Shown: one piece after another, positions 23,555-25,726 of the stretch
Layout of the letters: every line of letters starts with the position of its first letter
How positions within the stretch are numbered: position 1 is the first letter of the stretch
Assembly: GCA_938015805.1 (NCBI GenBank)
Contig: CALLXF010000066.1
Span: forward strand, 1-38,187
Source: an uncultured Saprospiraceae bacterium
GTDB lineage: Bacteria > Bacteroidota > Bacteroidia > Chitinophagales > Saprospiraceae
DNA: 38,187 nt
Direction of reading: 5' to 3'
Translations under genes and position numbers: made by a program
The notes under the pieces: model-generated
Told to the model about the DNA's origin: nothing
Database searches by the model: none
What the model saw: the letters and a program-made list of their open reading frames with translations, nothing else

Positions 23555-25726
23555 CTACACGACAACTAAACCGATACCACGTAAATCTTCCATTAGATTA
23601 CCATGCCAAAACAAAGTAAAATCACTTAGCCCAAAATCTATAAAACCTTGCTCCATTTCTTTAAACAGAAGATGATCAGAATCAGAAGATGCACTTGTCT
23701 TAATGATCAGTTGCTCGATCCATTTTCCCTCTAACGCAAGACAGGGCAATCGATACGTTTCTTTTTTTGTTGTAATATCTAGTGTGTTGGTTTCTGGATT
23801 AAAAATCATTGGCCCTCCGAGCCAAAATACTTTTTGATTAGGTTTAGGTGTAGTAAGACTAGGCTTAGAAAGATATCTGTAAATTAGATCAGAAGGTAAA
23901 CTCGTCGCCGGAATTGTATGCTCAAACCATTCCTGCAAATCATAGTCTAGACATACACCATGCATAAAATTATATAACGATTTTTTTAAACCTGCTCCAT
24001 ATAAATCATGATCTGCTCCAGTCGGATCTGAGTGTTCTAGGTCGTTATTAGCAAACGTTCCTAGACCAGTATGATTTACAACTTTAAACTGATGCGGCTG
24101 CAAACCTACAGGGCTATGTGCCGTCATGGCAAAACGATGCCAAAACGCTGACTGTAATACACCTTGCTCAAACATCTGACGCACCACCTCTAGAGAATCC
24201 ACGGTCTCCTGATCTGTCTGCGTCGGAAAACCGTACATGAGATAAGCATGTACCATAATCCCCGCTTGATTAAAATTCTGGTTGACCTGAGATACTTGTT
24301 GGATCGTGACACCTTTTGCGATTAATTTTAAGAGTCGGTCAGAGGCTACTTCCAGACCACCGGATACTGCTATGCAACCCGACGCTGCTAGTAATCTACA
24401 CAGATCGGATGTAAAGCTTTTCTCAAATCTTATATTTGTCCACCAACTAACGACGAACCTCCGTTTTAAAATTTCTAGTGCTACTGCTTTCATAAGAGCA
24501 GGAGGTGCTGCCTCGTCCACAAAATGAAAACCTCTCTCCCCTGTTTGGTCTACGAGTTCTTCCATTCGGTCAACGATAAGAGAAGCAGAAGAAGCCTCAT
24601 AGTCTTTAATATATGATAGTGATATATCGCAAAATGTACATTTACCCCAGTAGCATCCATGAGCCATCGTAAGTTTATTCCACCTTCCATCACTCCATAA
24701 TCGATGCATCGGATTAGTCATCTGGATGACCGAAAGATAGGATCTTAGGGATAGACCCGTATAATCAGGAGTGCCGACATGTTCTTGTTTTACATCTGGA
24801 TAAAGACTTCCATTATAATAAACCACAAGATCATTTTCTAGGGTAAACGTTCGCTTAAGCATCGAGGCTTCTATCGTTCCATCCAGATAACTGAGCAAAT
24901 TAATCAAGGGCGTCTCACCGTCATCCAGCGTGATAAAATCTACAAATTCAAATACCCTCGGATCAGAAATAGACCGCAACTCTGTATTAGGATAACCACC
25001 ACCCATGCAAATTTTTACATCCGGATAATGTGCCTTAATCCATTGTCCACATTTCAAAGCGGCAAAAAGATTACCCGGAAACGGAACTGATAAACAAACT
25101 AATGTAGGTATAGCATCTAAAAACTGCTTACGCAAAATGTCTAACATGATAGTACTGATATAGCTTGTCAGCGAATGTAATTCTGCATACAAACTATCAA
25201 ATGTCTGGGCACTCATACCCAGTCGTTCTGCATATCTACTAAACCCAAAATGAGGGTCTATAAGTTCTATAATAAAATCGGCAATATCCTCTAAATAGAG
25301 TGTCGCAATATGACGAGCCTGGTCTCTTATTCCCATCGTCCCAAATGCCCAATCTAAATCTTCCAACTGATCAAACTTAGAGGCCTCTGGCAAAAAATTA
25401 CGTTCGCAAATAAAATGAGCCAATGTCGCATCCTGATCCTGAAGAAAAGAAATTACAGCATCTATAGTTTCTATGTAACTATCTTTTAATGTAAATATCC
25501 GTTGAGCATTAGGACTTGCAGACTGCAGGGACTCCATGTCTACCCTGGCAAATAAATCCTGCAAGCCCTGCTTAGAAAATAACCTCAGAATAGTATCCAT
25601 TCCGAGATCTATCTGACCTGCCGGAATACCTTTAGTGTTTAAAAACCCCTTAATATAAGCCGTCGCAGGATACGGCGTATTTAACTGAGTAAAAGGGGGC
25701 GTTATCAATAATATTTTCTGTGGCAA
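23555..25726 (-). CDS. B12-binding-type radical SAM protein, unknown reaction
   Basis: This 723-residue protein has an N-terminal B12-binding-like Rossmann domain (about 1-290: KILLITPPFTQLNTPYPATA, IKICMGGGYPN-like strand, DFITLDDGETPL) and a radical SAM domain (about 345-560). The iron-sulfur cysteines are Cys358, Cys363 and Cys366 in HGCYWGKCTFCD, a CX4CX2C spacing instead of CX3CX2C. Further radical SAM features are GGLEVASDRLLKLIAKG and YLMYGFPTQTDQET. The C-terminal 160 residues are unfamiliar. The start is TTG at 25726; an in-frame stop lies five codons upstream and no ATG fits the domain start. It is a single gene, and its base composition looks richer in G and C than its neighbours. 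Substrate unknown. Confidence 0.85.
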   Translation of the reverse strand: MPQKILLITPPFTQLNTPYPATAYIKGFLNTKGIPAGQIDLGMDTILRLFSKQGLQDLFARVDMESLQSASPNAQRIFTLKDSYIETIDAVISFLQDQDATLAHFICERNFLPEASKFDQLEDLDWAFGTMGIRDQARHIATLYLEDIADFIIELIDPHFGFSRYAERLGMSAQTFDSLYAELHSLTSYISTIMLDILRKQFLDAIPTLVCLSVPFPGNLFAALKCGQWIKAHYPDVKICMGGGYPNTELRSISDPRVFEFVDFITLDDGETPLINLLSYLDGTIEASMLKRTFTLENDLVVYYNGSLYPDVKQEHVGTPDYTGLSLRSYLSVIQMTNPMHRLWSDGRWNKLTMAHGCYWGKCTFCDISLSYIKDYEASSASLIVDRMEELVDQTGERGFHFVDEAAPPALMKAVALEILKRRFVVSWWTNIRFEKSFTSDLCRLLAASGCIAVSGGLEVASDRLLKLIAKGVTIQQVSQVNQNFNQAGIMVHAYLMYGFPTQTDQETVDSLEVVRQMFEQGVLQSAFWHRFAMTAHSPVGLQPHQFKVVNHTGLGTFANNDLEHSDPTGADHDLYGAGLKKSLYNFMHGVCLDYDLQEWFEHTIPATSLPSDLIYRYLSKPSLTTPKPNQKVFWLGGPMIFNPETNTLDITTKKETYRLPCLALEGKWIEQLIIKTSASSDSDHLLFKEMEQGFIDFGLSDFTLFWHGNLMEDLRGIGLVVV

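Follow-up and report, generated by a model that had tools for sequence, protein, structure and literature searches.

Class-1 cobalamin radical SAM enzymes are described in a 2025 review (PMC13331322) by a five-stranded Rossmann fold with a hairpin after strand 5. According to the same review, OxsB, TsrM and TokK put an Asn, Arg or Trp residue of the strand-3 loop under the cobalt, and OxsB is counted there as a non-methyltransferase. AprD4 is reported as a radical SAM diol dehydratase (PMC5461906). As to the cluster motif, a paper from 2011 regards 'CX3CX2C or CX4CX2C' as typical for the superfamily (PMC3087415), and a review states that departures from CX3CX2C 'are not unusual' (PMC8992657). 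A Cx4Cx2C motif was published for GenD1, together with a demonstrated dependence on cobalamin and radical SAM (PMC4340712), and the motif reported for PoyB and PoyC is Cx7Cx2C (PMC5682303). Our searches of the open-licence PMC literature found, among the matches listed, no publication on the family described here.

The window analysed, a stretch of 38,187 nucleotides from an uncultured Saprospiraceae bacterium (contig CALLXF010000066.1 of assembly GCA_938015805.1), encodes a protein of 723 residues which stands for a real, as yet uncharacterised subfamily within a known group, the cobalamin-type radical SAM enzymes. The open reading frame (ORF) starts with a TTG codon and is composed of the following parts, given in the order of the protein.

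23555..25726, minus strand: whole ORF, 723 residues, B12-type radical SAM protein (full-length homologs found)
25607..25726, minus strand: residues 1-40, Rossmann strands 1 and 2, NTPYPATAY conserved (model and conservation)
25106..25606, minus strand: residues 41-207, helical insert between Rossmann strands 2 and 3, LEDxxD and GFSRYAE conserved (model and alignment)
24812..25105, minus strand: residues 208-305, Rossmann strands 3-5 and beta-hairpin, motifs PFPGN, GGG and LDDGE (model, alignment and Pfam B12-binding matches in the family)
24107..24694, minus strand: residues 345-540, radical SAM barrel, with VDEAAPP, WWTNIRFE, GGLEVAS and AYLMYGFPTQT (Pfam Radical_SAM)
24629..24655, minus strand: CX4CX2C cluster motif, C358, C363 and C366 (position, alignment and motif count in homologous ORFs)
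23861..24106, minus strand: residues 541-622, post-barrel region, its first part conserved with FANND and GLKKSLxNxMHG (alignment)
23558..23860, minus strand: residues 623-723, optional C-terminal beta-sheet with helices, winged-helix/RRE-like in appearance (models and structure comparison)

Radical SAM membership is given by the Pfam family PF04055, which scores 45.3 bits against a cut-off of 29.5 over residues 355-513 and matches all 39 aligned family members. The first-pass annotation had read a CX4CX2C spacing for Cys358, Cys363 and Cys366, and the translation of the ORF bears this out: the three residues sit inside HGCYWGKCTFCD, and the letters HGC-YWGK-C-TF-C correspond to CX4CX2C. Whether this spacing is conserved in the clade had been left to be checked. 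The three cysteines are invariant in the 39 members, and of 95 homologous ORFs 94 show C[YW]WxxCxxC, the sole exception (L100) being an N-terminal fragment of 210 residues. Hence, the spacing is neither a product of chance nor a sequencing slip.

As a distinguishing oddity, which is how it had first been presented, CX4CX2C is not supported, since the same spacing occurs in GenD1, in queuine lyase and in distant relatives, namely the proteins of Rhizobium phaseoli, Sinorhizobium meliloti and Rhizobium CB3171 and two proteins of Jannaschia and Novosphingobium linked to nitric oxide synthase (NOS). The BchE protein examined has CX3CX2C. Thus, the spacing is already known, the motif is not the news, and the protein joins other CX4CX2C enzymes. 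The annotation had also named, as speaking against its reading, the case that the spacing is standard in a subfamily already characterised; for the motif, GenD1 and queuine lyase are such cases, yet no membership of either enzyme in the present subfamily is shown. In the phylum at large, a DNA pattern for the motif was found in 61 of 296 genomes, many of the matches being the family's own genes, and none of seven other places examined held an ORF with C[YFW]WxxCxxC.

The history of the spacing was followed in a tree of 34 rows, in which the motif columns were kept and the label of one row (Solid) was set by hand from 8 to 3 after its motif had been read. Eighteen of the 20 CX4 rows stand together (99/99), and the two NOS-linked rows fall with the CX7 group (95/89). 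On the supported branches the spacing label has to change at least twice, and only 4% of the bootstrap trees need a single change; the AU test does not reject a single CX4 clade of all 20 rows (p-AU 0.16). A warning of long branches meeting was given by the program, and because of these long branches the CX4 grouping is soft.

Some of the more distant loci deserve mention in their own right. In the alphaproteobacteria Jannaschia sp. W003 (L158, 4131-8339) and Novosphingobium sp. ES2-1 (L159, 5644-9382) a CX4CX2C B12-type radical SAM gene stands directly before an NOS oxygenase gene and a glycosyltransferase gene flanks them on one side, which looks like a conserved small pathway. On the conjugative plasmid pAK76 of S. 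meliloti (L106, 6531-11952) a distant CX4CX2C relative has a flavoprotein gene on one side and genes for a 2OG-Fe(II) oxygenase and a cupin-like protein on the other, and these neighbours suggest a biosynthetic cluster. In two Streptomyces plasmids (L143, 3992-6626, and L144, 3884-6365) tmk (dTMP kinase) and a NUDIX or MazG-like gene stand in this order after a CX3CX2C radical SAM gene, possibly a nucleotide-related island.

That the protein belongs to a distinct subfamily, as the first-pass annotation had suggested, is supported by the tree, where the family forms a 100/100 clade of 15 sampled rows, and by the curated models. Of NCBIfam, 26 models matched and none of the 25 listed reaches its cut-off. 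The best neighbour is the RiPP C-methyltransferase family TIGR03975 (80.3 bits against a cut-off of 281.85, residues 177-518), followed by the P-methyltransferase PhpK (TIGR04479; 76.7 bits against 600). The AprD4 diol dehydratase model NF033070 scores 18.1 bits against a cut-off of 500.

A scan of contigs found at least 591 stretches that encode relatives. The best 80 of these have 57-74% identity in the best segment, and 79 of them are from Bacteroidota and one from Pseudomonadota. Of 395 genomes sampled from the phylum, 66 have the family (E≤1e-60) with one match each, save for one genome with a match in two pieces. In this member (G129:C25:128941-131292) the query ranges of the two pieces overlap and a single frame of 801 residues is reported for both, so it may have undergone an insertion or rearrangement relative to the others. 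In the set of the 60 nearest genomes, which counts the window's own, matches at E≤0.001 occur in 19: strong ones (E≤1e-190) in 14, and weak ones that correspond to other radical SAM proteins in five. Three further genomes belong to the window's genus; one has the family, and the other two, one of them 98% complete, show none. Cultured Flavobacterium, Pedobacter and Chitinophaga carry the family as well. Four members with at least 80% query coverage and 49.6-55.2% identity were found in plasmid records, from Aureibacter, Parabacteroides, Vitreoscilla and Ideonella, so that the family is also present on a Parabacteroides plasmid and on two betaproteobacterial plasmids. From the phylum sample, the nearest genomes and the plasmids it therefore follows that the family is real, patchily distributed across Bacteroidota and single-copy in the phylum sample.

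Two other readings, a phage or viral origin and a defence system, were considered and rejected. Two viral-contig stretches matched a pattern, neither of which encodes a relative, and phages gave no match at E≤1e-5. A search for defence systems with PADLOC gave no match at E≤0.01.

The AlphaFold2 model of the 723-residue protein (pLDDT 80.0, pTM 0.83) predicts Rossmann strands at residues 5-9, 36-40, 209-213, 238-242 and 264-266 and a hairpin at 293-297 and 300-304, with the barrel next. The predicted strands and hairpin fit the class-1 description, with the Rossmann domain before the barrel. In a structure comparison over approximately residues 1-610 the Z scores were 18.6 for OxsB, 18.0 for AprD4, 17.4 for TsrM, 16.4 for MgmA, 16.3 for CysS and 15.2 for TokK. 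OxsB, the top row (3.4 Å over 387 residues), is tied with AprD4. MiaB, a tRNA enzyme not known as one of the B12 enzymes, also spans residues 1-594 of the model, at Z 12.1-13.1.

The N-terminal B12-binding-like domain of the first-pass annotation is supported by these strands and by Pfam B12-binding (PF02310), which matches 18 of the 39 members at E≤0.01; the model adds a helical insert of about 165 residues within the domain. For the two members with scores given, PF02310 reaches 29.1 and 29.3 bits against a cut-off of 32.1. In the window protein no B12-binding match was found at E≤0.01, and Radical_SAM is the only Pfam domain seen. This missing match, together with the Z score of AprD4, would agree with a Rossmann domain that is a structural relic in an enzyme working without cobalamin, like AprD4. 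AprD4 is not known to use cobalamin, and a search of the open-licence PMC literature found no paper describing AprD4 with both cobalamin and a Rossmann domain. Against a relic stand the PF02310 matches in the other members and the loop after strand 3. The letters of this loop are PFPGN in 93 of the 95 ORFs (the remaining two are fragments and stop short of it), and it lies where characterised class-1 enzymes put the residue under the cobalt. It deviates in two betaproteobacterial members (PFPGS and PFPGA) and in the Rhizobium relatives. By analogy with OxsB, TsrM and TokK, the PFPGN loop may place a residue under the cobalt likewise. A relic is further disfavoured by the genomes, since all seven family-positive genomes checked have other strong B12-binding domains. 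We therefore consider a cobalamin-free enzyme rather unlikely, and infer that cobalamin is the cofactor.

B12 use by the host points the same way. Pfam finds B12-binding in the host genome three times, once within a MetH-like fragment. Of the 66 family-positive genomes, 62 match MetH at E≤1e-80, and the other four carry strong B12-binding domains. Since 368 of all 395 sampled genomes have a MetH match, this co-occurrence says little. The MetH match of the host itself (G000:C114:2041-3276) is limited to profile positions 770-1182 of 1182, within a frame of 442 residues, and is below the family cut-off, perhaps due to a contig end.

We propose a stand-alone cobalamin-dependent class-1 radical SAM enzyme, most likely a C-methyltransferase, and give this reading an even chance of being right. 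C-methylation ranks first among the reactions, as the two curated families with the best scores are both methyltransferases. In such an enzyme C358, C363 and C366 would hold a [4Fe-4S] cluster, and SAM would bind to the fourth iron and be cleaved to the 5'-deoxyadenosyl radical, which would abstract hydrogen from an unactivated substrate carbon. Methylcobalamin, bound base-off in the Rossmann domain over the PFPGN loop, would give the methyl group, and a second SAM would remethylate the cobalamin. Positioning of the substrate, perhaps a peptide or protein whose gene lies elsewhere, is probably the task of the winged-helix/RRE-like C-terminal domain and of the helical insert. Several results weigh against the proposal. 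AprD4, a diol dehydratase, has a Z score of 18.0, compared with 15.2-17.4 for the methyltransferases, and MiaB fits a large part of the model as well. OxsB, the top row, is no methyltransferase either. Furthermore, the window protein lacks the PF02310 match, its cluster loop is poorly modelled (pLDDT below 50 at residues 364-371), and the likeness of the C-terminal domain to an RRE is weak.

With OxsB as the top row of the fold comparison and 37.3 bits for the BchE profile, a cobalamin-dependent non-methyltransferase also has to be taken into account, which would use B12 with the 5'-deoxyadenosyl radical for a ring contraction, a cyclisation or a rearrangement in the manner of OxsB or BchE. 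Since methyltransferases make up both of the best-scoring profile families and methylation is the commonest reaction of the group according to PMC11659888, such an enzyme appears unlikely, though worth keeping in mind, and C-methylation is preferred.

The annotation had further described a C-terminal region of about 160 unfamiliar residues. This region exists but consists of two parts on the minus strand, a conserved post-barrel stretch (about residues 541-622) and a variable optional domain (about residues 623-723). In the alignment residues 541-600 are well conserved (GLKKSLxNxMHG) and residues 623-723 poorly. In the phylum sample the match stops before profile position 660 in 10 of the 66 genomes. 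Nine of these ten are from one family (f43) and have open frames of 619-636 residues; the tenth (G102) has a frame of 728. Judged by frame length, the C-terminal domain is thus absent in 9 of the 66 family-positive genomes. The proteins of Parabacteroides, Vitreoscilla and Ideonella have 626, 650 and 645 residues.

Predicted alone from 38 sequences, residues 610-723 form a four-stranded sheet with helices (pLDDT 85.7, pTM 0.73). Foldseek found no match for the isolated domain at E<0.001, and Pfam has no match in it. Searched against the PDB, the C-terminal profile gave two chains only, a designed protein (E 0.035) and a penicillin-binding protein (E 0.7), neither of which is meaningful. In the structure comparison, where a Z score below 8 may reflect a common arrangement only and rows within 1 are tied, the best ten rows are RiPP or peptide-modifying proteins (Z 5.7-6.5): McbB 6.5, ThcOx 6.3, TruD 6.0, TbtB 6.0 and TbiB1 with leader peptide 5.9, as well as MadB and MccB. 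We take the leading rows to align through their RRE domains. The next rows are ribosomal-oxygenase chains (Z 4.4-5.4, the best 5.4 and 5.3) and DNA-binding domains of response regulators (at most 5.2, then 5.0). With hhalign, no similarity was detected to an alignment of four PqqD sequences or to a control of 16 Trans_reg_C sequences, a small reference set. The domain is thus weakly assigned as winged-helix/RRE-like, and no more. By eye, the C-terminus of the Rhizobium phaseoli relative (L105, 7464-9569) resembles PqqD or an RRE, yet it has no Pfam PqqD match.

The structural rows, together with TIGR03975 as the closest curated family, would suit a RiPP-type enzyme with a true RRE at its C-terminus, which would bind the leader of a short peptide from another locus of the genome; this peptide would then be C-methylated. 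However, the ribosomal oxygenases and response regulators are tied with the last RRE rows (5.7-6.0), there is no sequence similarity to PqqD, and the core is far better conserved than the C-terminal domain, which some members lack. A precursor-like ORF or partner that recurs beside the gene was not detected either.

This last point follows from the gene neighbourhoods. A DinB-like gene (Pfam 20.7 bits against a cut-off of 23) stands upstream at a distance of 146 bases, and the gene is convergent with a GH113-like gene. In G001 and G002, two genomes of the same genus, the homologs of the two flanking genes lie on different contigs, and G003 of that genus has neither. Clustering of the ORFs around 95 loci placed any neighbour group near the gene in at most 19 loci. 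Of 20 groups traced, 16 are wholly Flavobacteriaceae or wholly Pedobacter and four add one to three loci from other families. The four mixed groups, response regulators, DEAD-box helicases and similar proteins, are counted as chance or generic because the proteins are generic, the foreign loci few and the distances scattered. Among the loci inspected, the neighbourhoods of other clades differ. Of the 25 groups listed for the small ORFs within 1.5 kb of 136 loci (5,045 in total), none is precursor-like and spans families; two groups with three family labels each consist of one synteny group and a single stray. No neighbour among the 95 loci and no small ORF among the 136 was thus found to recur beyond genus-level synteny. 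Scans for promoters (six promoter-like sites, 9.1 in shuffles) and terminators (seven terminator-like sites, all inside ORFs, 1.9 in shuffles) gave nothing usable. Hence the gene does stand alone in the window and across the relatives examined, as had been stated, and, as far as neighbour and small-ORF clustering reach, its context gives no clue to the substrate.

Given these findings, we regard the RiPP-type enzyme as quite improbable. A related proposal, for which we see only a slim chance, is a widespread orphan cobalamin radical SAM enzyme that recognises a leader or protein by a domain of its own, fused to it, and C-methylates a conserved protein from another locus of the genome. If true, this C-methylation would be a housekeeping protein modification and not natural-product synthesis. 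What makes the family of interest is that it occurs in one sixth of the phylum's sampled genomes with a very conserved active site. For the preferred C-methyltransferase, a peptide or protein is perhaps the substrate.

Compared with known systems, the PoyC-type family TIGR03975 shares the N-terminal B12-type domain and the radical SAM domain with our protein. In contrast to the CX4CX2C found here, all four Streptomyces proteins of that group (two annotated as such and two unannotated homologs with 80-84% identity) have CX7CX2C, and its gene in S. globosus adjoins a precursor gene, whereas the window gene has none. The likeness to GenD1, a gentamicin A C-methyltransferase, is one of published motif (Cx4Cx2C), and unlike the window gene GenD1 belongs to an antibiotic pathway. 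Queuine lyase (6p78) has the same spacing (CIWGKCSFC) and is the single PDB sequence match at E≤0.1 (E 0.015); its chain of 251 residues is matched to query residues 336-524 only, and a PDB search with the alignment profile gave no match at E≤0.1. The relatives on Rhizobium and Sinorhizobium plasmids have CX4CX2C and 22-31% identity over the aligned parts and group with the family at 99/99, but they have different gene neighbours and long branches, so that their exact placement is unsure. The class-1 enzymes OxsB, TsrM, TokK and CysS have the same two-domain fold as residues 1-610 (approximately) of the model at 10-18% identity. Of these, TsrM differs by its CX3CX2C motif, and the insert of about 165 residues is a predicted feature, seen in the model of the window protein.
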